Shown: in pieces, positions 9,813-27,274 of the stretch
How positions within the stretch are numbered: position 1 is the stretch's first letter
How the letters are laid out: each line of letters begins with the position of its first letter
Source: Vreelandella halophila
GTDB taxonomy: Bacteria > Pseudomonadota > Gammaproteobacteria > Pseudomonadales > Oleiphilaceae
Assembly: GCF_019903425.1 (NCBI RefSeq)
Contig: NZ_JACHUZ010000013.1
Location: 1,210,285-1,274,284, forward strand
Direction: 5' to 3'
Length of the DNA: 64,000 nt
Notes under the pieces: model-generated
What the model was told of the DNA's origin: nothing
The model's input: only the letters and a program-made list of their open reading frames with translations
Databases searched by the model: none
Translations under genes and position numbers: made by a program

Positions 9813-10235
9813 ATGATTGTTCTGGATACCAATGTCATATCGGAGCTGATGCGCCCTGCGCCGGAAGAAGCAGTGGTCCAATGGCTGGATCAGCAGCCCG
9901 CCGAGGAGGTGGCGGTGACATCGATCACTGTTGCGGAAATCCTTTTCGGCATTGAGCGCCTGCCTGAAGGAAAGCGACGGACCCGATTTGCTGAGGCGGC
10001 CGCCGAGCTTTTTGGGACGGATTTTACAGGTCGCATCCTGCCGTTTGACGCCCAGTCCGCCAGATATTACGCCATGGAGGTAGCTGCAGCTGAACGTCAG
10101 GGGAAAGCGGTTTCCATGGCAGACGCCCAGATTGCAGGAATATGCATGAGCAATGATGCCGCACTCGCTACGCGCAACATTCGGGACTTTGAGGCCTTCC
10201 CGTTGGCACTGGTCAATCCATGGACCGGCTGCTGA
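9813..10235 (+). CDS. fitB: FitB/VapC-like PIN-domain toxin ribonuclease
   Basis: 140 aa, full length. It has the PIN-domain opening MIVLDTNVISELMRP and the expected acidic metal-binding residues: Asp5, Glu42 (VAEILFGIERLPEGKR), Asp104 (SMADAQIAGI) and Asp125 (TRNIRDFE). PIN toxins cut RNA when freed from their antitoxin. It starts 2 nt after fitA. The nuclease residues all appear intact, so the toxin is probably functional. Confidence 0.88.
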   Translation: MIVLDTNVISELMRPAPEEAVVQWLDQQPAEEVAVTSITVAEILFGIERLPEGKRRTRFAEAAAELFGTDFTGRILPFDAQSARYYAMEVAAAERQGKAVSMADAQIAGICMSNDAALATRNIRDFEAFPLALVNPWTGC

Positions 10236-10239
10236 CTGC

Positions 10240-10263
10240 AGGAATGAGCCTTGCTCGCGATTG
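10240..10263. repeat. REP-like repeat, copy 2 (half element)
   Basis: A single GGAATGAGCCTTGCTCGCGA half follows the fitB stop. A degenerate partner may lie in the next 40 nt (TTGCCCGCAG). It shares the core with the paired copies elsewhere. Confidence 0.6.
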
Positions 10264-10298
10264 TGATGCCTAGAGGTTGCCCGCAGCCCGCAGGGAAA

Positions 10299-10757
10299 TC
10301 AGGTGTACTGCTGGGCAGTCTGGCGGATCGTCTCGACCATGGCGCGCAGGCCGTTGCCCCGGGTGGGCGAGATGTGGCGCATCAGGTCCAGTTCCTCGAA
10401 CAGGCCTTCAATGTCCACGGCCAGCAGGTCATCCGGCGTACGGCCGTTGAGGGCGATCATGATGATGGCCGCCAGGCCACGCACGATCATGGCGTCGCTG
10501 TCGATCAGCAGGTAGAGCCGGCCGCTTTCCGGGTCCTTCCAATGGATAAGCCAGACTTGGCTCTGGCAGCCGTGGACGTAGTTTGCCTCACGCCTTTCCT
10601 CGTCCGGGAAGGGCGGAAGCTTGTTGCCCAGGTCCATGATGTAGCCGTAGCGCTCTTCCCAGTCGTCGAGAAGCTCAAAACCGTCCCGGACATCCTCGGT
10701 GGTGATGTCGGTGCCCAGTTCGGTGCTGGTGAAGTCGGCGGTGGTTTCAGCAGTCAT
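10299..10757 (-). CDS. sufE: SufE sulfur-acceptor protein
   Basis: 152 aa from the ATG at 10757, which overlaps the sufT stop by one base (TGATG). The family motif is intact: YVHGCQSQVW with Cys64 as the sulfur acceptor, and GLAAIIMIALNGRTPDD. SufE takes persulfide sulfur from the SufS desulfurase and passes it to the SufBCD scaffold in the cytoplasm. It is the last gene of the suf operon. Confidence 0.93.
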   Translation of the reverse strand: MTAETTADFTSTELGTDITTEDVRDGFELLDDWEERYGYIMDLGNKLPPFPDEERREANYVHGCQSQVWLIHWKDPESGRLYLLIDSDAMIVRGLAAIIMIALNGRTPDDLLAVDIEGLFEELDLMRHISPTRGNGLRAMVETIRQTAQQYT

Positions 10758-11296
10758 CACAAAAGCCCGAGTTCGAGTTTCGCTTCATCGGTGAGCATCT
10801 CGCTGCTCCAGGGCGGGTCGAAGGTGAGTTCCACCTCGACGTCCTCCACGTTGGGAACGGACTCTACCTTACGCTTCACGTCATCGGCAATCACGGGGCC
10901 CATGCCGCAGCCGGGGGCGGTGAGCGTCATCAGGATGTAGGCGTGGTTGCCTTCGCTGTCGTTCCAGACCTTACAATCGTAGATGAGGCCCAGATCGACG
11001 ACGTTTACGGGGATTTCCGGGTCGTAGCAGGTCATCAGCGCTTCCCAGACCTGGTCCTCGTTGATGCTGCCGTCGCTGGGTGTCTCGAATTCGCTTTCCG
11101 CCACCTGCTTGCCGATGGCGTCCGCGTCCTTGCCGTCCAGGCGTGCCAGGTTGCCGTTGACGGCCACGGAGAAGCTGCCGCCCAGTGCCTGTGTGAGCGT
11201 AACGAAGGTCCCTTCGGGGATAGTGATGGCGGTGCCGGAGGGCACCAGCCGGGCTTCTACATCCCGTTGGGTTACGACAACTTCCCGATCCTGCAT
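10757..11296 (-). CDS. sufT: SufT, DUF59-containing Fe-S maturation factor
   Basis: 179 aa from the ATG at 11296 (GGAA upstream). The N-terminal 80 residues are the SufT-specific part; the C-terminal MIP18/DUF59 domain carries YDPEIPVNVVDLGLIYDC at 91-108 and TAPGCGMGP around Cys130. SufT helps mature Fe-S proteins, especially under high demand. It sits between sufA and sufE with minimal spacing and belongs to the operon. Confidence 0.9.
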   Translation of the reverse strand: MQDREVVVTQRDVEARLVPSGTAITIPEGTFVTLTQALGGSFSVAVNGNLARLDGKDADAIGKQVAESEFETPSDGSINEDQVWEALMTCYDPEIPVNVVDLGLIYDCKVWNDSEGNHAYILMTLTAPGCGMGPVIADDVKRKVESVPNVEDVEVELTFDPPWSSEMLTDEAKLELGLL

Positions 11297-11313
11297 AGTC
11301 TGTTCCGGTTGCC

Positions 11314-11670
11314 TCAGTTCACCGCAAAGCTCTCGCCACAGCCGCATTCGGCGGTGGCGTTGGGGTTGCGGAATTCGAACATGCTGTTGATGCCCTGGGT
11401 GACGAAGTCGATCTCGGTGCCGCCGACCATGGTGAGGTCGGTGCTGCTGACGTAGACGGTAACGTCCTCTGACATCTGAAACGCGGTGTCCTCATCGCCG
11501 GGGTCGCGCACGAAATCCGTGATGTACTTGAACCCGGAGCATCCGGATTTTTTCGTGCCCAGGCGGATGCCGGCCATTTCCGGGCGCTTTTTCAGCTGTT
11601 CACGACAGTGTTCGATGGCGGCATCGGTCATGGTGACGCCGGTCTGGGGCGTTACGGTTTGCACTGTCAT
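11314..11670 (-). CDS. sufA: SufA/IscA-type A-type Fe-S carrier
   Basis: 118 aa from the ATG at 11670, preceded by GGAGGG. The three ligand cysteines of A-type carriers are present: Cys44 (SGCSGFKY), Cys109 and Cys111 (ECGCGESF). It accepts clusters from the SufBCD scaffold and delivers them to target enzymes. It lies 32 nt after sufS. The start chosen is 12 codons inside the longest frame because of the clear ribosome-binding site. Confidence 0.92.
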   Translation of the reverse strand: MTVQTVTPQTGVTMTDAAIEHCREQLKKRPEMAGIRLGTKKSGCSGFKYITDFVRDPGDEDTAFQMSEDVTVYVSSTDLTMVGGTEIDFVTQGINSMFEFRNPNATAECGCGESFAVN

Positions 11671-11702
11671 GTTGCCCTCCTGATTCCGATGGGCGGTGTC
11701 TT

Positions 11703-12920
11703 TCATTTACCGGTGAATAGGCGCTGGATCTTCTGCAGGCCCTGGAAAAAGGTGTCCACCTCTTCCACCGTATTGTAAAACGCGAATGAGGCTCTGGCAG
11801 TACCCGCAATGCCAAAGTGCTCCATTAGCGGCATGCAGCAGTGATGGCCGGTGCGGATGGCGATGCCCTGCTGGTCGAGCAGGGTGCCGAGGTCGCTGGG
11901 ATGCAGGCCTTCGAGCCAGAACGAAAGGACCGGCACCTTGTTGTCTGCCTGACCGTAGCGCGTCAGGCCGGGGAAATCGGCGACCCATTCGTCCACGCGC
12001 CGGCCAAGGGCGGCTTCGGCCTCGCGCAGGTTGTCGTGGCCCAGGTCGTCCAGATAGCGCATGGCGGTGGCCAGGCCGATGGCTTCGGCAATGGCCGGTG
12101 TGCCGGCCTCGAAGCGGTAAGGGGTCTTCTGGAAGCTGGTGCCCTCGAAGCTCACCCGGTGGATCATCTCACCGCCGGTCTGGTAGACGGGCCATTCGTT
12201 GAGCAGATCCTCCCGGCCGTACAGCACGCCAATGCCGGTGGGGCCGAACAGCTTGTGGCCGGAGAAGACGTAGAAGTCACAATCCAGATCCTGAACGTCC
12301 GCGCCCAGATGCGGTATGGCCTGGGCGCCGTCGACCAGGGTAGTGGCCCCGGCTTCCTTCGCTGCGGCAACCATTTCCCGCGCGGGGTTGATGGTGCCGA
12401 GCACATTGGAGACGGCGGTGATGGCGAACACCTTCGTGCGTTCACTCAGCTGGTCGCGGAAGCTCTGCTGGTCCAGCTCGCCCTCAGCGGTGACCTCGAT
12501 CACCTTGAGGGTGGCGCCGGTGGCCTCGGCCAGCATCTGCCAGGGGACGATGTTCGCGTGATGCTCCATGCGGGAGACCAGGATCTCGTCGCCCTGCCCA
12601 AGGGAGCGATAGAACCCATTGGCCACCAGGTTGATGCCCTCGGTGGTGCCGCGTGTCCAGACGATTTCATTGGCGCTGGCGGCGTTGATCTGGCCACGCA
12701 CGGTCTCCCGGGCGCCTTCGAACAGGGCCGTGGCCCGGTCACCCAGGGTATGGGCGCCGCGATGCACGTTGGAGTGCGTCTCGCGGAAGTACTGGGTCAT
12801 GGCGTCCATGACCGCCTGCGGTTTCTGGGCCGAGGCAGCGTTATCCAGGTAGACCAGCGGCTTGCCGTTGACTTCCTGTTCGAGGATCGGGAAATCCGCG
12901 CGCACCTGCTCCGGGTTCAT
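11703..12920 (-). CDS. sufS: SufS group II cysteine desulfurase
   Basis: 405 aa, full length. A pyridoxal-phosphate enzyme that takes sulfur from cysteine for Fe-S assembly. The PLP lysine is Lys223 in FSGHKLFGPTG and the persulfide cysteine is Cys361 in RTGHHCCMPLMEHFG. An extra cysteine, Cys362, follows directly where many homologues have Ala. Its ATG overlaps the sufD stop (ATGA). Confidence 0.95.
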   Translation of the reverse strand: MNPEQVRADFPILEQEVNGKPLVYLDNAASAQKPQAVMDAMTQYFRETHSNVHRGAHTLGDRATALFEGARETVRGQINAASANEIVWTRGTTEGINLVANGFYRSLGQGDEILVSRMEHHANIVPWQMLAEATGATLKVIEVTAEGELDQQSFRDQLSERTKVFAITAVSNVLGTINPAREMVAAAKEAGATTLVDGAQAIPHLGADVQDLDCDFYVFSGHKLFGPTGIGVLYGREDLLNEWPVYQTGGEMIHRVSFEGTSFQKTPYRFEAGTPAIAEAIGLATAMRYLDDLGHDNLREAEAALGRRVDEWVADFPGLTRYGQADNKVPVLSFWLEGLHPSDLGTLLDQQGIAIRTGHHCCMPLMEHFGIAGTARASFAFYNTVEEVDTFFQGLQKIQRLFTGK

Positions 12921-14224
12921 TCAGAAGCCCTCCGGAAACTGGCCTCGATGAAGTCCGTCAGGCGAGTGTTGACCGCCTCGCGGATGTCTTCCAGCGGCAC
13001 CTGGCCCACCAGCTCGTGGACGAAGGCCATGCTGAGCATGGTGGCCGCCGTGTCGCGGTCGATGCCACGCGAGGTCAAGTAGAACAGGGATTCCTCATCC
13101 AGCTGGCCGACGGTGGCGCCGTGGGCGCAGGTGACGTCGTCCGCGTAGATCTCAAGCTCCGGCTTGGTGTCGATCTCGGCGTTGGTCGACAGCAGCAGGT
13201 TCTTGTTGTTCATGTCCGCGTGGGACTGCTGGGCATCCGGGTGGATATGGATGCGGCCGTTGAAGATCGCGTGGGAGCGGTCCGCCGCGAGGCAGCGGTA
13301 GTTTTCGTCGCTGTCGCAGTTCGGGACCACGTGGTCGATGGCCGTATGGTTGTCGTAGTGCTGGCGGTCCTGGGTCAGGGCGATGCCGTTCAGTCGGGTG
13401 TAGCCCCCCTGGCCCTCGAGCCGAACCTGCAGGTCGTGCCGGCGCAGGTCGCCGCCGAAGCCGATGCAGTGGCTGTCGAGCTTGGCGTTGGCGCCGATCC
13501 TGACGCCGGTGGCACCGATGTGGCGGACGTTGACCGGGTCCATGCACAGGCGGATGTAGGTGATGTTGGCGCTGTCGTCGAGCAGCAGCTCGGAGACGCT
13601 GTCCACCAGCACCGGCTGATCACCATTGCTGATGAACTCTTCCACGAGAGTCATCTTACTGCCCTGGCCGGCTTCGATCATAAGGCGCGGGTAGTTGGAG
13701 CCGCTGGTGCCAGCATCGGTGACGTACTGGATGTAGACTGGCTTATCCACGCTGGTATCCGCTGACAGGCGGATCAGGATCCCGTCCTCCAGTCGTGCGG
13801 TGTTGAGCGCCGCCATCTGGGTGGTGCCGTGGTCCAGGGTGGTATCCAGCTTCTTTGCAACGCCCTGGGCGGTGACGTCGTCCAGGTCCGCGAAACGGCG
13901 GATGTCGATGCCATCACCGGTGGGCAGGCTGCTGCTTTCCAGGTCCACGACGCCGTTACGGATCACCAGCCGATAGGTGCCTTCCACGCTGCGGTAGTCG
14001 GCATTGCCGGTGGCCTGGGTCAGCGGTGCCAGCTCCGGATCCAGCTTGAGGTAGCGGCTGGAGTATTTCCAGTTTTCGGTCCGGCGGTTGGGCAGCGCCA
14101 TGCCAGTAATCGCTTTGCTGCGGATGTCGCGAAGGCTCTTAAGCGGCGCGGGCAGCTGCTTGCCGCCTTCGGGTGTGAAGGCGTTGTCCAGCGGTGTTAT
14201 GGGCGTCTTATGCGCAAGTGTCAT
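12917..14224 (-). CDS. sufD: SufD scaffold subunit
   Basis: 435 aa from the ATG at 14224, which follows an ideal AAGGAGG; the open frame further upstream only reads through sufC. The C-terminal half is the right-handed beta-helix shared with SufB (ADDVTCAHGATVGQLDEESLFYL). SufD pairs with SufB and two SufC subunits in the SufBC2D scaffold and is needed for iron entry. Its start is 10 nt after the sufC stop. Confidence 0.94.
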   Translation of the reverse strand: MTLAHKTPITPLDNAFTPEGGKQLPAPLKSLRDIRSKAITGMALPNRRTENWKYSSRYLKLDPELAPLTQATGNADYRSVEGTYRLVIRNGVVDLESSSLPTGDGIDIRRFADLDDVTAQGVAKKLDTTLDHGTTQMAALNTARLEDGILIRLSADTSVDKPVYIQYVTDAGTSGSNYPRLMIEAGQGSKMTLVEEFISNGDQPVLVDSVSELLLDDSANITYIRLCMDPVNVRHIGATGVRIGANAKLDSHCIGFGGDLRRHDLQVRLEGQGGYTRLNGIALTQDRQHYDNHTAIDHVVPNCDSDENYRCLAADRSHAIFNGRIHIHPDAQQSHADMNNKNLLLSTNAEIDTKPELEIYADDVTCAHGATVGQLDEESLFYLTSRGIDRDTAATMLSMAFVHELVGQVPLEDIREAVNTRLTDFIEASFRRASE

Positions 14225-14234
14225 GGAACCTCCT

Positions 14235-14996
14235 TCAGCCAGCAGCTTCCGCTTCGTTGATGCCGAGCCAGCCGTAGCCGTGTTCTTCGAGTTCCATCGC
14301 CAGCTGCTTGTCGCCGCTCTTGATGATCTGGCCTCCGGCGAGCACGTGCACGACGTCCGGCACAATGTGGTTGAGCAGGCGCTGGTAGTGGGTGACGACC
14401 AGGAAGGAGCGGTTCTCGGCACGCAGGGTGTTTACACCGTTGGCGATGGTCTTGAGCGCGTCGATGTCGAGGCCGGAGTCGGTCTCATCGAGGATGCCCA
14501 GGCGCGGCTCCATCATGAGCATCTGCATGATCTCGTTGCGCTTTTTCTCGCCACCGGAGAAGCCTTCGTTGACGCCACGCTTGAGGAAGTCGGGACCGAG
14601 GTCAACCTGTTTGGCTTTTTCCTTGGCCATCTTCATGAAGCTGGGAGAGTCGAGTTCATTTTCGCCTCGGTGCTTGCGCAGGGTGTTGACGGCGGTGCGC
14701 AGGAACTGGAGGTTGCTGACGCCGGGGATTTCCACGGGGTACTGGAAGGCGAGGAAGAGGCCGGCAAGGGCACGTTCTTCAACTTCCAGGTCGAGCAGGT
14801 TCTGGCCGTCGAAGAGGATTTCGCCTTCGGTGACTTCGAACGCTTCATGGCCGACGAGGACCTGGGCGAGGGTGGATTTGCCAGAACCGTTGGGGCCCAT
14901 GACGGCGTGGACTTCGCCGGGTTTGATTTCGAGGTTGATGCCCTTGAGGATGGGGGTGCCCTCGACGCTGGCGTGGAGATTTTTGATGGTCAGCAT
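14235..14996 (-). CDS. sufC: SufC ATPase
   Basis: 253 aa ABC-type ATPase. Walker A is GPNGSGKST at 34-42, the signature is FSGGEKKRNEI and Walker B is LGILDETDSGLD; the DET-DSGLD form is typical of SufC. It drives the conformational changes of the SufBC2D scaffold. Unlike the rest of the operon it is separated from the gene before it (sufB) by about 200 nt that contains a large palindromic repeat. Confidence 0.95.
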   Translation of the reverse strand: MLTIKNLHASVEGTPILKGINLEIKPGEVHAVMGPNGSGKSTLAQVLVGHEAFEVTEGEILFDGQNLLDLEVEERALAGLFLAFQYPVEIPGVSNLQFLRTAVNTLRKHRGENELDSPSFMKMAKEKAKQVDLGPDFLKRGVNEGFSGGEKKRNEIMQMLMMEPRLGILDETDSGLDIDALKTIANGVNTLRAENRSFLVVTHYQRLLNHIVPDVVHVLAGGQIIKSGDKQLAMELEEHGYGWLGINEAEAAG

Positions 14997-15052
14997 GTGG
15001 GTGCTCTCTGTACCTGTTTTCTATGTTTCAAGGTTGATGACTGGTTGCCTGC

Positions 15053-15160
15053 GGTGGGTGGGGTACTGCTCCCCGGGAATCGCTGTGAATACGTCCCTGT
15101 ACGCTGCTCTTCCGCCATCCTTGGCTCCAGAGCTTCCCGGTGAGCAGTACCCCACCCACC
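15053..15160. repeat. three-way-junction repeat, copy A (inside the suf operon)
   Basis: Perfect 19-bp outer arms (15053-15071 with 15142-15160), then CCGGGAA/TTCCCGG, enclosing two inner hairpins. The first has a TACG/TGTA stem with TCCC loop. The second has GCTCT/AGAGC and GCCA/TGGC stems with a TCCT loop. The core GCTGTGAATACGTCCCTGTA is shared with copies B, C and D, but the arms are unique to this site. It lies between sufB and sufC, so it would be transcribed in the suf mRNA. Confidence 0.85.
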
Positions 15161-15197
15161 TTGATTCGACCGCCTTGGATTCGCTCTGTCGGAGGGC

Positions 15198-16712
<1,515 letters not shown>

Positions 16713-16768
16713 GGCTGCTACTCCACTGGTTCTGGGCCTGGCGCGCGCGGCACCGGCCTTTCATGAAC

Positions 16769-16825
16769 GGATAAATTCGGGGAAGACTGTGCTTGGGGGC
16801 AGCAGTGTCTTGCCGGAATTCATCC
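16769..16825. promoter_or_regulatory. inverted repeat in the sufB leader
   Basis: Two 23-nt arms that match at 18 positions are separated by an 11-nt loop, between the sufB promoter and its ATG. It would form a long hairpin in the roughly 190-nt leader. There is no run of T after it, so it is not an ordinary terminator. Its function is unknown. Confidence 0.5.
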
Positions 16826-16908
16826 AACCCCTTTGAAAAGCGTCTACTGAAGCGAATTTCTGTGTCCGCGCTTGCTGGATTCTACGTCCAGCCTTCTTCT
16901 GGAGATTG

Positions 16909-16941
16909 ATTGTACAATACCTGAGTAGATATGTCAGGTAT
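16909..16941 (-). promoter_or_regulatory. sufB sigma-70 promoter with IscR type-1-like operator
   Basis: On the minus strand CTGACA and TACAAT are 17 bp apart, each one base from consensus. Overlapping the -35 and spacer, positions 16917-16941 form a 25-bp dyad with perfect 8-bp arms ATACCTGA / TCAGGTAT. Against the IscR type 1 consensus (ATASYYGACT...AGTCRRSTAT) it matches at 21 of 25 positions. Binding of [2Fe-2S]-IscR here would block the promoter when clusters are plentiful. The iscR gene must lie elsewhere. Confidence 0.78.
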
Positions 16942-17057
16942 TCCGCCTGAGTGATGACCATTATACCGGAACCGGCATGGGCGGAGTTAATCGTGCTGAT
17001 AGGGGCAGGCTCCCGGTATAATCCGCAGATCGTGGATTAACTCTGGAGAGAGCTGTA

Positions 17058-17396
17058 ATGGAGACCATTGAGTGGGGAGATTTTGAGCGGGTGCAGGTCC
17101 GGGCCGGCACCATTGTTGAGGTCGAGGATTTCCCCGAGGCCCGGCGCCCGGCCTACAAACTGAGGGTGGATTTTGGTGAGGAGCTGGGGATTCTGAAATC
17201 CAGCGCCCAGATCACGGACCTCTACCAGCGTGAGGAGCTGGAAGGACGGCAGGTGCTGGCGGTGGTGAACTTTCCGGCGAAGCAGATTGGCCCCATCCGC
17301 TCGGAGTGCCTGGTCACCGGGCTTCACCGGGAGGATGGTGCGGTGGTGCTGGCGGTCCCGGATAAGCCGGTGCCGAACGGAGCGCGCCTGGCCTGA
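17058..17396 (+). CDS. CsaA-like tRNA-binding-domain protein
   Basis: 112 aa, a single OB-fold tRNA-binding domain as in CsaA and the C-terminal part of Met[22 protein letters not shown], then [21 protein letters not shown] and [19 protein letters not shown]. Such small proteins bind tRNA or act as export-related chaperones in some bacteria. Its stop is 10 bp from the stop of the convergent MFS gene. Confidence 0.88.
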
Positions 17397-17406
17397 GACG
17401 GATTGG

Positions 17407-18570
17407 TCAGTTGGGCAGTTTCAGGCGCAGTGCCAGTGGCACCGTTACCGCTGCGCACAGAGTGATGAAGCCAACGGTGGCCAGAGCGTTGCCGGTGGTG
17501 TCGGCCAGGGCACCGCCGATCAGCGGCACCAGGAACGCTACGGTATAGCCGATGGTGAAATTGCCGGCGGACAGCCGGCCCGCCTCCGAGCTGGAGACCA
17601 GGTGCGGGGGCAGCGATACGACGAGAATCAGCAGGATTCCGGCGAAGAAGCTCATCCCCACGGCAAAGGCAACCCCCACCCAGCCCTCAACCAGGATGAA
17701 GCCGAGCATGGCGGCTACGCTGAGACCGGCACTACAAAGAATGGGGCCGCGCCGGCCAACCCAGTGTCGGGCCATCCACAGCATCAGGGTCGAGGCGGCT
17801 ACCTGTGCGAAGTTGAAACAGAACAGGGTGGTGTCCAGGTTTTCAAGCTCGCCCCTTTGTTCCAGAACACTGGCCATGTAGGCGTTGGTGCCGAAGAACA
17901 GGGAAGCTGTGCCGGCCAGCAGCAGGCCAAGTTTCCACATCAGGGGGTCGCGCAGGCGGGGCAGCCACTGAGCGCTGTCGTCGCCACCACCGCCGGCGGT
18001 TTTCGGCAGAATCAGCATGAGCGCAATCAGCACGGCCGGCAGTGACCACACCAGCAGCGTCAGTCGCCAGCTGTGGCCGGTCAGCGGCATGATGACCGGC
18101 AGGGTGAGGCCGGCGCCGATGAACTCGCCCATAAGCATGCCGTTCATGTAGCAGGCCGAGCCCAGGGCGATCCGTGTGGGGGTGAGCCAGCGGGGCAGCA
18201 GTGCCGGCAGCGAGGGTTGCATGACGGCGATCGCCAGGCCCATCAGGGCGCTGGCGCCCAGCAGCAGGACTGGCCCCTGGGCCAGCCCCCGGGTTGCGGA
18301 CATGACGCCGACCACCGCCAGGGCAGTTGCCAGTGCGTTGCGTGGGCCAAGGCGCATGATCAGAAGCGACCCGGCGAGTGCCCCCAGGGCGAGCATCAGA
18401 ACGGGCAGGGTGGTCAGTGCCCCGATGTGGGTCTGGCTCAGGCCCAGTTCGTCGCCGATGGCTGGTGCCAGCGCGGGGGCTACCAGTATGGGCAGCCGCA
18501 TGTAGAGGCCAGCCAGCCACAGCAGCGCGAACAGGCCGGCACTGTGGAGGCTGTCACGGTCCACAACCAT
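17407..18570 (-). CDS. MFS transporter, CynX/NimT-like
   Basis: 387 aa with about twelve hydrophobic segments in two halves and a cytoplasmic stretch around 190-205 (PKTAGGGGDDSAQWLPRLRD). LPILVAPALAPAIGDELGLS and LTTLPVLMLALGALAG resemble the CynX/NimT (cyanate or nitroimidazole) branch of the major facilitator superfamily. The substrate is unknown. The ATG follows GGAGAG. It appears to be transcribed alone. Confidence 0.8.
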   Translation of the reverse strand: MVVDRDSLHSAGLFALLWLAGLYMRLPILVAPALAPAIGDELGLSQTHIGALTTLPVLMLALGALAGSLLIMRLGPRNALATALAVVGVMSATRGLAQGPVLLLGASALMGLAIAVMQPSLPALLPRWLTPTRIALGSACYMNGMLMGEFIGAGLTLPVIMPLTGHSWRLTLLVWSLPAVLIALMLILPKTAGGGGDDSAQWLPRLRDPLMWKLGLLLAGTASLFFGTNAYMASVLEQRGELENLDTTLFCFNFAQVAASTLMLWMARHWVGRRGPILCSAGLSVAAMLGFILVEGWVGVAFAVGMSFFAGILLILVVSLPPHLVSSSEAGRLSAGNFTIGYTVAFLVPLIGGALADTTGNALATVGFITLCAAVTVPLALRLKLPN

Positions 18571-21545: not shown

Positions 21546-22142
21546 ATGTCATCCAGGTTTGTTGTGGCGTTGCTGGCTTTTATGGCGATGCCTGTCTGGG
21601 CCCAGGGGCCATCCTTTTCCTACGCGGAAGCCGGTCTGGCACTGTACCCGAATTTCGAGAGCGAGCCTTTGGTGGGCGCTCAGGCAAGGGGCAGCCAGAC
21701 GCTGACCACGGAATGGTTCATGTTCGGTGGACTCAAGGTGCTGACCGGGGATATTGATGTCAGCGCCCTGCACGGGGGTGGCGGCTATCGCTATTCTGTG
21801 GATCACCGGACGGACCTCTGGGGTGGTCTGACGTTCGAGTATCAGGAGATTGAGGCGGATCAGTGCCAGAGTGTCATGCGCCCTGGTGGCAACTTTGTGC
21901 GTACGTGCTCCAGCGTGTCCAGTGATGATACCGCACCGGGGCTGCGGGGCGGCATCCGGCGCCAGCTGCATCGCGATCTGGAGATCGGCGCCTCGGCACG
22001 TTACATCACCGGGGATCTGGACTACCTCGGATTCACCGGCACGGCCCGCTACCGCTGGCAGCGCAATGTGAGTGTGCTGGCGGAAGCGGACTATTACGAT
22101 GGCAACCTCGGTGTGATCGGCGGGCTGTCAATGCATTTCTAG
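21546..22142 (+). CDS. small outer-membrane beta-barrel protein
   Basis: 198 aa. The ATG at 21546 is preferred over a GTG three codons earlier because AAGGGAGA then has normal spacing. A signal peptide (VVALLAFMAMPVWA) is followed by repeated strands (TEWFMFGGLKVLTGDIDV, GASARYITGDLDY) and ends LSMHF. A Cys pair (QCQSVMRPGGNFVRTC) may bridge a loop. It is comparable to eight-stranded OmpA-like barrels. Its stop overlaps the end of spoVR on the other strand by 4 nt. Confidence 0.72.
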   Translation: MSSRFVVALLAFMAMPVWAQGPSFSYAEAGLALYPNFESEPLVGAQARGSQTLTTEWFMFGGLKVLTGDIDVSALHGGGGYRYSVDHRTDLWGGLTFEYQEIEADQCQSVMRPGGNFVRTCSSVSSDDTAPGLRGGIRRQLHRDLEIGASARYITGDLDYLGFTGTARYRWQRNVSVLAEADYYDGNLGVIGGLSMHF

Positions 22143-23659
22143 GCCGCGCTGTTATGGCTGCCGCCCTCCGGCGGCATGCGATAGCGCTCCATCACCTCGC
22201 CGTTATCCACGCTTTCCAGTACCACATCGAAGCCCCAAAGCCGGTGCACGTGCTTGAGCACCTCCTGGGTATCATCGTCCGCCATGGGGATGCCGTCCAC
22301 CCGGGTGTGGCGCAGCAGCAGTGAGCGGTCCCCGCGGGTGTTCACGTTCCAGACCTGGATGTTCGGGTCCCTGTAGCTCAGGTTGTACTGGCGCGCAAGC
22401 TTCTCGCGCACGCGCCGGTAGCCACGGTCGTCGTGAATGGCCTTGATCTCGTAGGCATCATCGCCTTCCTCGTCAGCAATGGCGAAGAGTTTGAGATCGC
22501 GCATCACCTTGGGTGAGAGGTACTGGAGAATGAAGCTTTCGTCCTTGAAGTTGCGCATGGCGAAGTCCAGCGTCTGCTGCCAGTCACTGCCGGCGATGTC
22601 CGGGAACCACGCCCGGTCTTCTTCCGTCGGGTTCTCGCACATGCGCTTGAGGTCCATGTAGATGCTGAACCCGAGGGTGTAGGGGTTGAGCCCGGAGTAG
22701 TAGGGGCTGTCGAACGGCGGCTGGTAGATCACGGCGGTGTGGTTCTGAAGGAATTCCAGCATGAAGCCGTCGTCCACCAGTCCCTCCTCGTACATCCGGT
22801 GCACGATGGTGTAGTGCCAGAAGCTGGCCCAGCCCTCGTTCATCACCTGGGTCTGGCGCTGCGGGTAGAAGTACTGGGCGATCTTGCGCACGATGCGCAC
22901 CAGCTCGCGCTGCCAGGTCTCTAGAAGGGGCGCGTTCTTCTCGATAAAGTACAGCAGGTTCTCCTGGGGTTCGGCCGGGAAGCGCCGCTGGCGGGCCTCG
23001 TCGCCATCGTTACCGCCCATCTCGGGGATGGTGCGCCAGAGGTCGTTGACCTGCTGCTGTCGGTATTCCTCGCGCTCCTTTTGGCGCCGGCGCTCCTCCT
23101 CGGCGGAAATGGGAGCCGGGCGCTTATAGCGGTCCACGCCCTGGTTCATGAGTGCGTGACAGGAGTCGAGGATGGCTTCCACTTCCTCCACGCCGTAGCG
23201 TTCCTCGCATTCGGCCACGTAGTTCCGGGCGAACATCAGGTAGTCGATGATGGAGCTGGCGTCCGTCCAGCTGCGGAACAGGTAGTTGTTCTTGAAGAAG
23301 GAGTTGTGGCCGTAGCTCGCGTGGGCGATCACCAGGGCCTGCATCATCATGGTGTTTTCTTCCATGAGGTAGGCGATGCAGGGGTTGGAGTTGATCACGA
23401 TCTCGTAGGCAAGCCCCATCTGGCCGCGCCGGTAGCCTTTCTGCGTGGCCATGAACTGCTTGCCGAAGGACCAGTGGTGGTAGCCCACGGGCATGCCCAC
23501 GGAGCTGTAGGCGTCCATCATCTGTTCGGCGCTGATCACCTCAATCTGGTTGGGGTAGGTGTCCAGCCCGAAGTCGGCGGCAATACGGGCGATCTGGCGG
23601 TCGTATTCCTCGATCAGCTCGAAGGACCAGTCGGAGCCGCTGGATATTGGTTGTGTCAT
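22139..23659 (-). CDS. spoVR: SpoVR/YcgB family protein
   Basis: 506 aa from the ATG at 23659. It opens SDWSFELIEEYDRQIARIAADFGLDTYPNQIEVI and contains the family block YHHWSFGKQF...YEIVINSNPCIAYLMEEN. SpoVR-like proteins are widespread in non-sporulating proteobacteria, where they are co-expressed with PrkA and YeaH under stress or starvation. The molecular function is unknown. It is the third gene of the prkA-yeaH-spoVR operon. Confidence 0.93.
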   Translation of the reverse strand: MTQPISSGSDWSFELIEEYDRQIARIAADFGLDTYPNQIEVISAEQMMDAYSSVGMPVGYHHWSFGKQFMATQKGYRRGQMGLAYEIVINSNPCIAYLMEENTMMMQALVIAHASYGHNSFFKNNYLFRSWTDASSIIDYLMFARNYVAECEERYGVEEVEAILDSCHALMNQGVDRYKRPAPISAEEERRRQKEREEYRQQQVNDLWRTIPEMGGNDGDEARQRRFPAEPQENLLYFIEKNAPLLETWQRELVRIVRKIAQYFYPQRQTQVMNEGWASFWHYTIVHRMYEEGLVDDGFMLEFLQNHTAVIYQPPFDSPYYSGLNPYTLGFSIYMDLKRMCENPTEEDRAWFPDIAGSDWQQTLDFAMRNFKDESFILQYLSPKVMRDLKLFAIADEEGDDAYEIKAIHDDRGYRRVREKLARQYNLSYRDPNIQVWNVNTRGDRSLLLRHTRVDGIPMADDDTQEVLKHVHRLWGFDVVLESVDNGEVMERYRMPPEGGSHNSAA

Positions 23660-23684
23660 GGCCACCTCTCTGAGTCTCTCATCC

Positions 23685-23744
23685 GTAGGAGCGAGCCTCG
23701 CCCGCGATTGTTGGTTGTCTATCGCGCGCAGGGCGCGCTCCTAC
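23685..23744. repeat. REP-like palindromic repeat, copy 5 (paired, well conserved)
   Basis: GTAGGAGCGAGCCTCGCCCG is followed 16 nt later by ATCGCGCGCAGGGCGCGCTC and CTAC, forming a long dyad between yeaH and spoVR, inside the operon. Confidence 0.85.
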
Positions 23745-23746
23745 AG

Positions 23747-25042
23747 TCAGGCGGTTTTCGGTTCGAACAGCTTGCGGAACACTGGATAGATCTCGCTGGC
23801 ATCCGAGAGCTGTTGCATGGCGAAGCGGTCCGGGAAGCTCGCCTGCACCGCCTCGTACTCCTCCCACAGGGCCTGGTGTTCGTGGGGGGTGATCTCCACG
23901 TACGAGTAGTACTGCACCAGTGGCAGGATCTTTTCCTGCAACAGTCGGCGGCAGATGGGCGAGTCGTCGTTCCAGTTGTCGCCGTCTGAGGCCTGGGCCG
24001 CGTAGATGTTCCAGTCGTCCGGCGGGTAGCGTTCCTCGATGATCCGGTGCATCAGCTTGAGCGCGCTCGAGACGATGGTGCCACCGGTCTCGCGGGAGTA
24101 GAAGAATTCTTCCTCGTCCACCTCCTTGGCGGCGGTGTGGTGGCGGATGAACACCACCTCGATGCGCTTGTAGTTCTTCTGCAGGAACAGGTACAGAAGG
24201 ATGAAAAAGCGCTTGGCGATGTCCTTGTGCACCTGGGTCATGGAGCCGGAAACGTCCATCAGGCAGAACATGACGGCACTGGTGGAGGGCTTGGGCTCCC
24301 TGCGGTGCTGGCGGTAGCGCAGGTCGATCTCGTCGATCCAGGGGATGCGCTTGACCTGGCGCTTGAGCTCGTCCCGCTCCTCCCGCAGCGCCTCGATCTG
24401 TCGCCCCTTGGAGAAGGCGGGATCGTCCGAGTCCGGCTGGGCTTCCAGGGCAGCGATCTGCTGTTCCAGTTCCCTGATCCGCCGCCTGCGCTTACCCGCG
24501 AGGCTGATGCGCCGGGCATAGGCCTTGCGCAATGAGCGGACCACATTGAGCTTGGCCGGGGTGCCATCAGTGGTGAAGCCGGCGTGGACGTACTGGTATG
24601 AGTCCGCGCTCTTGAGCTTCTTGCGCACCAGAAAGGGCAGTTCCAGGTCATCAAACAGGAAGTTAAGGAACTCTTCCTGGGTGATCTGGAAGACGAACTC
24701 GTCCATGCCCTCGCCCTGGTCACTGGCCTGGCCCTCGCCACTGCCACCGCCCTCGCCGCCGGGTGGTTTGGGCAGGCGATCGCCGGCGACGAACTCCTTG
24801 TTGCCGGGGTGCACCATCTCGCGGTTGCCACCTGCGCCGTGGTGGAAGACCGGCTCCTGGATGTCCTCGTTCGGGATACTGACCTGCTCGCCCTGCTCCA
24901 TGTCGGTGATGGAGCGGTTGTGAACGGCCTCCGATACCGCTTTCTTGATGTGCTTGCGGTAGCGGCGCAGGAACCGGTTACGGTTCACGGCGCTCTTGTT
25001 CTTGCCGTTCAGGCGGCGGTCAACAACGTGACTCATTCCCAT
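23747..25042 (-). CDS. yeaH: YeaH/YhbH-family protein (DUF444, VWA-like)
   Basis: 431 aa. The N-terminus [20 protein letters not shown] and the C-terminal von Willebrand-like part ([43 protein letters not shown]) identify the YeaH family. The DVSGSM metal-ion-dependent adhesion motif is intact. ATGs at 25042 and 25036 are both possible; AGGTG spacing favours the first, homology the second. In Escherichia coli yeaG-yeaH respond to nitrogen starvation. It lies 15 nt after prkA. Confidence 0.93.
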
Positions 25043-25057
25043 GCAGACACCTGCTGA

Positions 25058-26980
25058 TTACTGGGATTTCCGGACGCGCAGGTACCATTCCGCCAGCAGC
25101 TTGACCTGCTTCTCGGTGTAGCCGCGCTCGATCATCCGGTCCACGAACTGCTGGTGCTTGCGCTGATCCTCCTCGGACGCCTTGGGGTTGAACGAGATCA
25201 CCGGCAGCAGCTCCTCGGTGTTCGAGAACATCTTCTGCTCGATCACGCTGCGCAGTTTCTCGTAGCTGAGCCAGGACGGGTTCTGGCCGTTGTTGCTGGC
25301 CCGTGCGCGCAGCACGAAGTTGACCACCTCGTTGCGGAAGTCCTTGGGGTTGCTGATGCCCGCGGGCTTCTCGATCTTCTCCAGCTCCTCGTTGATGGCG
25401 GCGCGATCGAACATTTCCCCGGTCTCCGGGTCCCGGTAGTCCTGGTCCTGGATCCAGAAGTCGGCGTAGGTGACGTAACGGTCGAACAGGTTCTGACCGT
25501 ACTCGGAGTAGGACTCGAGGTAGGCGGTCTGGATCTCCTTGCCGATGAACTCCACGTATTCCGGCGCCAGGAACTCCTTGATGAAGCGCAGGTAGCGTTC
25601 ATGGGTCTCCGGCGGGAACTGCTCCTGTTCGATCTGCTTTTCGAGCACATAGAGCAGGTGCACCGGGTTGGCCGCCACCTCGGTGGTGTCGAAGTTGAAC
25701 ACCTTGGACAGGATCTTGAACGCGAAACGGGTGGACAGTCCGTCCATGCCCTCGTTCACTCCGGCGGCATCCCGGTACTCCTGGATGGACTTGGCCTTGG
25801 GGTCGGTGTCCTTGATGTTCTGGCCGTCGTAGACCTTCATCTTGGAGTAGATGCTGGAGTTCTCCGGCTCCACCAGCCGTGACAGCACCGTGAACTGGGC
25901 CAGCATGCTCAGGGTGTCCGGCGCGCACGGGGCACCGGCCAGGGAACTTTCACGCAGCAGCTTCTCGTAGATGTGCTGCTCCTCGGTGACTCGCAGGCAG
26001 TAAGGCACCTTGACGATGTTCACGCGGTCGAGGAAGGCCTCGTTGTTCTTGTTGTTGCGGAAGGTTTGCCACTCGGACTCGTTGGAGTGCGCCAGGATGA
26101 TGCCGTCGAACGGGATCGAGGACATGCCCTCGGTGGTGTTGTAGTTGCCTTCCTGGGTCGCGGTCAGCAGTGGGTGCAGGACCTTGATGGGCGCCTTGAA
26201 CATCTCCACGAATTCCATGATGCCCTGGTTGGCGCGGTTGAGGCCGCCGCTGAAGCTGTAGGCGTCCGGGTCGTCCTGGCTGTAGTCCTCCAGCATCCGG
26301 ATGTTGACCTTGCCCACCAGCGCGGAGATGTCCTGGTTGTTGTCGTCGCCGGGTTCGGTCTTGGCCACGGCCACCTGGTCCAGGATGGAGGGGTATTTCT
26401 TGACCACCCGGAACTGGCTGATGTCGCCGCCGTATTCATGCAGGCGCTTGACCGCCCAGGGCGACATGATGGTCTTGAGGTAGCGCGGCGGGATGCCGTA
26501 CTCCTCCTGCAGGATCGGGCCGTCTTCCTCGGGATCGAAAAGCCCCAGGGGCGACTCGTTCACCGGCGAGCCCTTGATGGCGTAGAAGGGCACCTTCTGC
26601 ATCAGGTGCTTGAGCTTTTCGGCCAGCGAGGACTTGCCGCCGCCGACGGGGCCGAGCAGGTACAGGATCTGTTTCTTCTCTTCCAGGCCCTGGGCGGCGT
26701 GGCGGAAGTAGGAGACGATGTTCTCCACGGCTTCTTCCATGCCGTAGAACTCGGAGAACTCCGGGTAGCGCTTGATGACCTTGTTCTGGAAGATCCGGGA
26801 GAGGCGCGGGTCGCGGGAGGTGTCGACAAGTTCCGGCTCGCCGATGGCGAGCAGCATGCGCTCGGCGGCGGTGGCGTAGGCTGAGGAATCCTCTTTGCAG
26901 ATGCTGAGGTATTCCTCGAGGCTCATTTCCTCTTCCTTGGTTGCCTCGTAACGATCCTGATAGCGCTGCAGTATGCTCAT
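25058..26980 (-). CDS. prkA: PrkA/YeaG serine protein kinase
   Basis: 640 aa from the ATG at 26980, preceded by AAGGGGG. An AAA-type N-terminal domain has Walker A GPVGGGKSS at 110-118; the C-terminal PrkA domain resembles distant eukaryotic kinases. The length matches E. coli YeaG (about 644 aa). It is the first gene of the conserved prkA-yeaH-spoVR stress operon. A roughly 560-bp region rich in repeats separates it from ilvD. Confidence 0.94.
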   Translation of the reverse strand: MSILQRYQDRYEATKEEEMSLEEYLSICKEDSSAYATAAERMLLAIGEPELVDTSRDPRLSRIFQNKVIKRYPEFSEFYGMEEAVENIVSYFRHAAQGLEEKKQILYLLGPVGGGKSSLAEKLKHLMQKVPFYAIKGSPVNESPLGLFDPEEDGPILQEEYGIPPRYLKTIMSPWAVKRLHEYGGDISQFRVVKKYPSILDQVAVAKTEPGDDNNQDISALVGKVNIRMLEDYSQDDPDAYSFSGGLNRANQGIMEFVEMFKAPIKVLHPLLTATQEGNYNTTEGMSSIPFDGIILAHSNESEWQTFRNNKNNEAFLDRVNIVKVPYCLRVTEEQHIYEKLLRESSLAGAPCAPDTLSMLAQFTVLSRLVEPENSSIYSKMKVYDGQNIKDTDPKAKSIQEYRDAAGVNEGMDGLSTRFAFKILSKVFNFDTTEVAANPVHLLYVLEKQIEQEQFPPETHERYLRFIKEFLAPEYVEFIGKEIQTAYLESYSEYGQNLFDRYVTYADFWIQDQDYRDPETGEMFDRAAINEELEKIEKPAGISNPKDFRNEVVNFVLRARASNNGQNPSWLSYEKLRSVIEQKMFSNTEELLPVISFNPKASEEDQRKHQQFVDRMIERGYTEKQVKLLAEWYLRVRKSQ

Positions 26981-27274
26981 GCTTGGCCCCCTTGCTGTGA
27001 CCTGGGATGGGCCCGGGCGGAACGCTGGCCGCACTGGGCCCCGATGGTGTCAGTTCATCATGCCTCTGTTCCGGTGGATTCTGTCTTCAATTATGGGTAA
27101 GCCGGCGCGGGTTGCGAGCCTGATTCAGGTTTCTGTGACCCGTTCGCGGCCGGGGTGCTTTCTACTGAGATTAGTAGACGGCGGTGGGATTGAACAGGGG
27201 GCGTGTGGATTAAGGTTTCTGATCGGCAGAGGAGGATGGTCCGCGATCTGTTGCTGAGCGCAGACTTTGTGGGG
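26981..27274. other. intergenic stretch upstream of prkA
   Basis: About 290 nt without a supportable gene, followed by repeat copy B and a REP-like pair up to ilvD. It should hold the prkA promoter. I see no clear -10/-35 pair or operator that I could defend. Confidence 0.5.

Follow-up and report, generated by a model that had tools for sequence, protein, structure and literature searches.

The suf operon of Vreelandella halophila is preceded by a palindrome that resembles a binding site for IscR, which raises the question of whether IscR reads this site and, if so, whether it switches suf on or off. The textbook circuit, in which type 1 sites stand for isc repression and type 2 sites for suf activation, stems from Escherichia coli, which owns both machines. 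There, isc is repressed from type 1 sites, to which IscR binds only in its [2Fe-2S] form; the type 2 site of the suf promoter needs apo-IscR (excerpts of PMC12594620 and PMC9973013). In alphaproteobacteria, IscR represses the suf genes and iscR heads the suf operon (excerpts of PMC4618611 and PMC11475020), and in Myxococcus xanthus the Rrf2 protein RisR represses suf in its holo form (excerpts of PMC9973013). The distribution of SUF and ISC in Pseudomonadales has been mapped (excerpts of PMC11559095); the control of suf in this order is not treated in those excerpts. Here we describe the locus within a window of 64,000 nucleotides, the whole stretch of DNA that was analysed, together with the rest of the genome and its relatives. 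Judging from these sequences, ISC, the usual machine for iron-sulfur assembly, is missing from this bacterium and from most of its relatives, where SUF, otherwise a back-up, would do all of the work, and the old ISC feedback sensor IscR was most likely kept to control suf.

The sufB promoter

The features of the region, in window coordinates, are listed below; the models named for sufB, sufC, sufD, sufS, the A-type carrier and sufT are exceeded at their cut-offs.

17058-17396, plus strand: divergent small gene outside the operon, from the list of open reading frames; its product is presumably a tRNA-binding-domain protein
16932-16937, minus strand: -35 element CTGACA, within the operator
16917-16941, minus strand: predicted IscR type-1-like operator, 25 bp, perfect 8-bp arms, 21/25 to consensus
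16909-16914, minus strand: -10 element TACAAT, spacer of 17 nt; the operator stops two bases short of it
16713-16902, minus strand: 5' leader of about 190 nt, from a transcription start inferred from sequence to sufB
15198-16712, minus strand: sufB, 504 aa (NF008773, TIGR01980)
14235-14996, minus strand: sufC (TIGR01978)
12917-14224, minus strand: sufD, start codon approximate (TIGR01981)
11703-12920, minus strand: sufS, cysteine desulfurase (TIGR01979)
11314-11706, minus strand: A-type carrier, sufA/iscA-like (TIGR00049)
10757-11347, minus strand: sufT (TIGR03406)
10299-10760, minus strand: sufE-like gene (best model NF006792, below cut-off)

The dyad reads ATACCTGA-GTAGATATG-TCAGGTAT on the plus strand and ATACCTGACATATCTACTCAGGTAT on the strand of sufB. 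It overlies the -35 element and spacer of a CTGACA-N17-TACAAT promoter that spans 16937 to 16909 on the minus strand and is directed to sufB. A first-pass annotation of this DNA had described the perfect arms and the promoter at 16909-16941 and had scored the dyad at 21 of 25 positions against the type 1 IscR consensus; the sequence is as described, and a recount against that consensus gave the same score. In a promoter scan of 16700-17080, this was the sole promoter-like site (mean of 0.1 in shuffled sequences). As far as position goes, the operator overlaps the promoter elements as a repressing type 1 site does.

A search with the arm pattern returned one match with at most three mismatches in the window, against 0.07 expected. 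Across the whole genome (3.5 Mb), the sufB dyad is the sole match without mismatches, the next best having two; with at most three mismatches allowed, there are 11 forward matches, and a control pattern has six. The strict E. coli type 1 consensus has no genome-wide match at three or fewer mismatches, because the sufB site and the iscR site described below each miss four of its letters. The centre of the sufB site is atypical, with ATATCT against mostly TAWTTT in relatives.

An RNA element in the sufB leader was considered and rejected, as no Rfam match with an E value of up to 1 was obtained within positions 10000-17500. Just downstream of the -10 element lies the motif CCAGAAG (16896-16902; profile positions 40-46), with per-letter conservation of 65-87% in the 63 box-bearing genomes of the family. 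This could be a leader element or an initially transcribed one, and it overlaps a terminator-like stem listed on the plus strand. Within sufB, positions 16269-16334 encode about 22 additional residues, rich in Ala, Glu and Gly, which interrupt the TIGR01980 match; this split is common to the four full-length-match genomes of the genus (G000, G002, G003 and G004). Elsewhere in the window, three minus-strand genes at 22139-27034 resemble a spoVR-yeaH-prkA cluster, judged by their translations.

IscR and the remnant isc locus

The suf operon had been said to lack an iscR gene of its own, and indeed none occurs among the open reading frames read in window positions 1-27000, nor does any Rrf2 match of the genome fall inside the window. 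A PF02082 profile search of the genome returned three full-length Rrf2 proteins and one weak match. Only one IscR is encoded, about 849 kb from sufB; the unlinked, Rrf2-type iscR with CCCH ligands that the first-pass reading presupposed is thereby found. The protein has the C-x5-C-x5-C-x2-H ligand pattern and Glu43. In an alignment with a PDB chain, which we take to be a Cys-to-Ala mutant of IscR, C92, C98, C104 and H107 align to the E. coli positions, with the three cysteines opposite alanines and the histidine conserved, and residue 43 is Glu. In E. coli IscR, these Cys and His positions serve as cluster ligands, and Glu43 keeps apo-IscR off type 1 sites.

The protein scores just below two equivalog cut-offs (TIGR02010, 201.8 versus 207.55; NF008110, 209.1 versus 275), which are curators' naming thresholds and not traits; among 117 genomes surveyed, 99 pass and 17 besides this one miss. 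Its predicted identity was called on the ligands and on synteny, IscR being its best family by far. The two other full-length Rrf2 proteins (L002 and L003) score best with NsrR or RirA models, below the cut-offs. The NsrR-like gene (L002, 1492-1953) adjoins genes that appear to be bfd-, bfr- and cytochrome-c-like, and lies opposite a presumed moaA-like gene.

The iscR locus has the order cysE-iscR-iscS-ndk-rlmN. In an ISC-bearing genome of the same taxonomic order (G105), the locus reads cysE-iscR-iscS-iscU-iscA-hscB-hscA-fdx-iscX-ndk-rlmN, its gene names being presumed from the first residues of the frames, so that V. halophila lacks the central part of the isc operon. Family searches of the genome, which is 99.25% complete, gave no match for IscU and none for HscB. 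Thus, with the isc operon reduced to iscR-iscS and the suf genes present, no assembly scaffold other than SUF was detected. The iscR promoter has a box of its own, ATACTTGACTGTTTTACTTGGTTAA, which scores 21/25 and accompanies TTGACT-N17-GATAAT in this genome and three congeners; the iscR and sufB promoters are two promoters of one genome with one shared architecture.

Conservation of the box in relatives

Across the 117 genomes, sufB was found in 96, an IscU-type protein in 27 and an IscR-type protein in 116. Every one of the 21 genomes that lack sufB has IscU. The IscU family is also matched in six of the 96 sufB genomes: G006, which is listed with 3% contamination; G038 and G044, whose matches are long, NifU-like frames (310 and 341 aa); G076; G083, whose sufB match is weak; and G100, whose IscU-family match is weak and lies 5 kb from sufB.

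The 600 bases that precede the sufB match were scored for the box in 95 of these 96 genomes, our own window included and G083 left out. Scores of at least 20/25 were obtained in 69 of the 95, comprising 63 of 73 family genomes (range 21-24) and six of 22 other genomes of the order. None of the 95 reversed sequences and none of 1900 dinucleotide shuffles reached 20/25, the reversed sequences never exceeding 19. Every one of the 63 family boxes carries CTGAC[TA]-N17-TA[TCA]A[AC]T, with -35 element, spacer and -10 element in register.

Ten of 80 named SufB relatives score 22-23/25, and the other 70 score at most 17. The ten include Marinobacter, Alteromonas, Aliidiomarina and Alcanivorax; Marinobacter records are also among the nearest named SufB relatives, at 77-81% identity. 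Three Alteromonas-type records have the order iscR-iscS-box-sufB, and three of the ten (L033, L050 and L085) have no good -10 element in the same register. In Alcanivorax DG881 (L033, 3248-4001), a divergent ndk lies beside the box and sufB; ndk normally follows isc, and the former isc site may have received suf there. One genome of the order outside the family (G089, L177) has two tandem type-1-like boxes upstream of sufB, each 21/25 and 25 bases apart.

A sequence-only model was built from 35 boxes and searched in six genomes, with 150 of 227 candidates scored. It listed mainly iscR and sufB sites, with the iscR site of this genome among them and its sufB site not listed. The training set included that iscR site, to which those of G002 and G004 are identical, as well as sites of G003, G012 and G015; most of the model's matches are thus matches by construction.

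Predicted control of suf by IscR

The site class and its position point to repression of suf by holo-IscR, with release under cluster shortage, which would be the reverse of the E. coli rule for suf. We think it very probable that cluster-loaded IscR uses the dyad as its operator and that the isc feedback loop has been moved to suf. Against this stand the atypical centre of the sufB site, its omission from the sites listed by the sequence-only model, the IscR scores just below the equivalog cut-offs, and two genomes of the order (G100 and G109) that have a box together with a neighbouring SUF-type regulator. When Fe-S clusters suffice, [2Fe-2S]-IscR would occupy the dyad and thereby cover the -35 element and spacer of the one strong promoter-like site ahead of sufBCDS-A-T-E; suf would be off. 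Demand, iron shortage or oxidation would leave IscR without a reduced cluster, so that it would let go of the dyad and suf would rise. Through the second box, with the same arrangement, IscR would regulate its own gene. In this lineage iscU-iscA-hscBA-fdx has been lost, iscR and iscS have been retained, and a feedback loop of the E. coli isc type would in this way have come to act on suf. The clusters of IscR would be loaded by SUF, since IscU and HscB are absent. Binding of IscR, repression of suf and loading of IscR by SUF are the parts of this model that we infer. The first-pass proposal, that suf is the house-keeping system and is repressed by holo-IscR encoded elsewhere, gains support as a prediction from the unlinked IscR, the undetected IscU and HscB, and the conserved box geometry.

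Alternatively, the site could work as at the E. coli suf promoter, where apo-IscR activates through a type 2 site (excerpts of PMC12594620 and PMC9973013), so that IscR, also without its cluster, would activate. We consider this very unlikely. The sequence fits type 1, and the operator lies over the -35 element and spacer, a position for repression, in 63 of 63 family cases. The type 2 pattern reaches at best 12-13 of its 16 specified letters, in differing places across six genomes, on an uncalibrated count; the best Fur match at the suf promoter, equally uncalibrated, has 12 of 19 letters. It is highly improbable that another Rrf2 protein, either an NsrR-like one (L002 or L003) or a SUF-type one, uses the dyad. 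Two further full-length Rrf2 proteins are indeed encoded, but they fit NsrR or RirA models best, and below the cut-offs; no SUF-type Rrf2 exceeds its cut-off here, such proteins occurring in the family exactly where the box is missing; and the same kind of box stands at iscR. A chance dyad over the promoter is next to impossible and was rejected, for although the promoter alone explains a few matched letters, the exact match is unique in 3.5 Mb and the box is kept in register in 63 of 73 family genomes, at scores that the controls (reversed sequences and shuffles) never reached.

Relation to known systems

Repression of suf by holo-IscR, as predicted here, would share with E. coli isc control the site class, the IscR ligand pattern with Glu43, the operator over the promoter and the box at iscR; it differs in that suf, on a separate operon, is the machine under control and that iscUA-hscBA-fdx is missing. 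With E. coli suf control, which employs an IscR type 2 site, Fur and OxyR, it has in common the regulator family and homologous suf genes, but the site here fits type 1 and lies in a repressing position, and the type 2 and Fur patterns are matched at best in 13 of 16 and 12 of 19 letters, on uncalibrated scores. As in the alphaproteobacterial isc-suf operon of Rhodobacter sphaeroides and Caulobacter crescentus, IscR would act on suf in an organism with a single assembly system (excerpts of PMC4618611 and PMC11475020), whereas the operator here matches the type 1 consensus of E. coli and belongs to a suf operon that is unlinked to iscR. Repression of suf by a holo Rrf2 protein also recalls M. 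xanthus RisR; that protein, however, belongs to a distant Rrf2 subgroup, is encoded at suf, has binding sites of its own and governs isc as well as suf (excerpts of PMC9973013).

Among the open-licence papers that the searches listed, none was recognised as describing a type 1 site for IscR at suf in this group; RegPrecise may contain a prediction of this kind. Repression of suf by IscR is already known from alphaproteobacteria, and what appears new, within that literature, is a predicted type 1 operator that stands alone, on a suf operon unlinked to iscR, across a gammaproteobacterial family. This family, in which nearly every member is without detectable ISC, has instead a predicted type 1 brake on suf, which would separate the sensor logic from the machine controlled. 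Such a single-loop system would offer a simple setting for testing IscR logic.

Box and SUF-type Rrf2 regulator

The SUF-type Rrf2 regulator (TIGR02944, suf_reg_Xantho) is an Rrf2 protein assigned by name to the control of suf and encoded near sufB. It exceeds its cut-off in 17 of the 117 genomes, this one not among them. Within the family, the ten genomes that have it are exactly the ten without the box; it lies beside sufB in nine of them and 3.5 kb away in G044, and one genome with this regulator, G010, has a 19/25 remnant of the box. The 22 other genomes of the order were tallied by hand. Eleven have iscR at most 2 kb upstream of sufB, with the box in one (G089); six have the SUF-type regulator beside sufB, with the box in two (G100 and G109); four have a distant IscR and no SUF-type regulator, with the box in three, the miss (G076) keeping ISC; and G110 has neither regulator and no box. 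Box and regulator are thus not strictly exclusive, as G100 and G109 have both. Where IscR is distant and no SUF-type regulator is encoded, the box is present in 66 of 67 genomes, and by this rule the suf regulator could be predicted from the promoter alone.

In the SufB tree, the five sampled family rows with the SUF-type regulator fall in one clade (99/99), which points to few independent events behind the rule; it may rest on one or two, possibly a single ancestral one. A genus-level independence figure (12 versus 4 genera, p 0.0005) was set aside as untrustworthy, since the SufB tree groups these rows. The tree of IscR plus IscS scatters the same five rows, with four changes and many poorly supported forks, and the disagreement between the trees fits an exchange of whole suf cassettes. 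We hold it evenly balanced whether the family has two exchangeable suf cassettes, one with the type 1 operator and read by the resident orphan IscR, the other with its own SUF-type Rrf2 protein and no operator. The IscR loop would then have been kept and moved to suf after loss of the isc core, and the whole cassette later swapped in some genera, leaving IscR its other targets.
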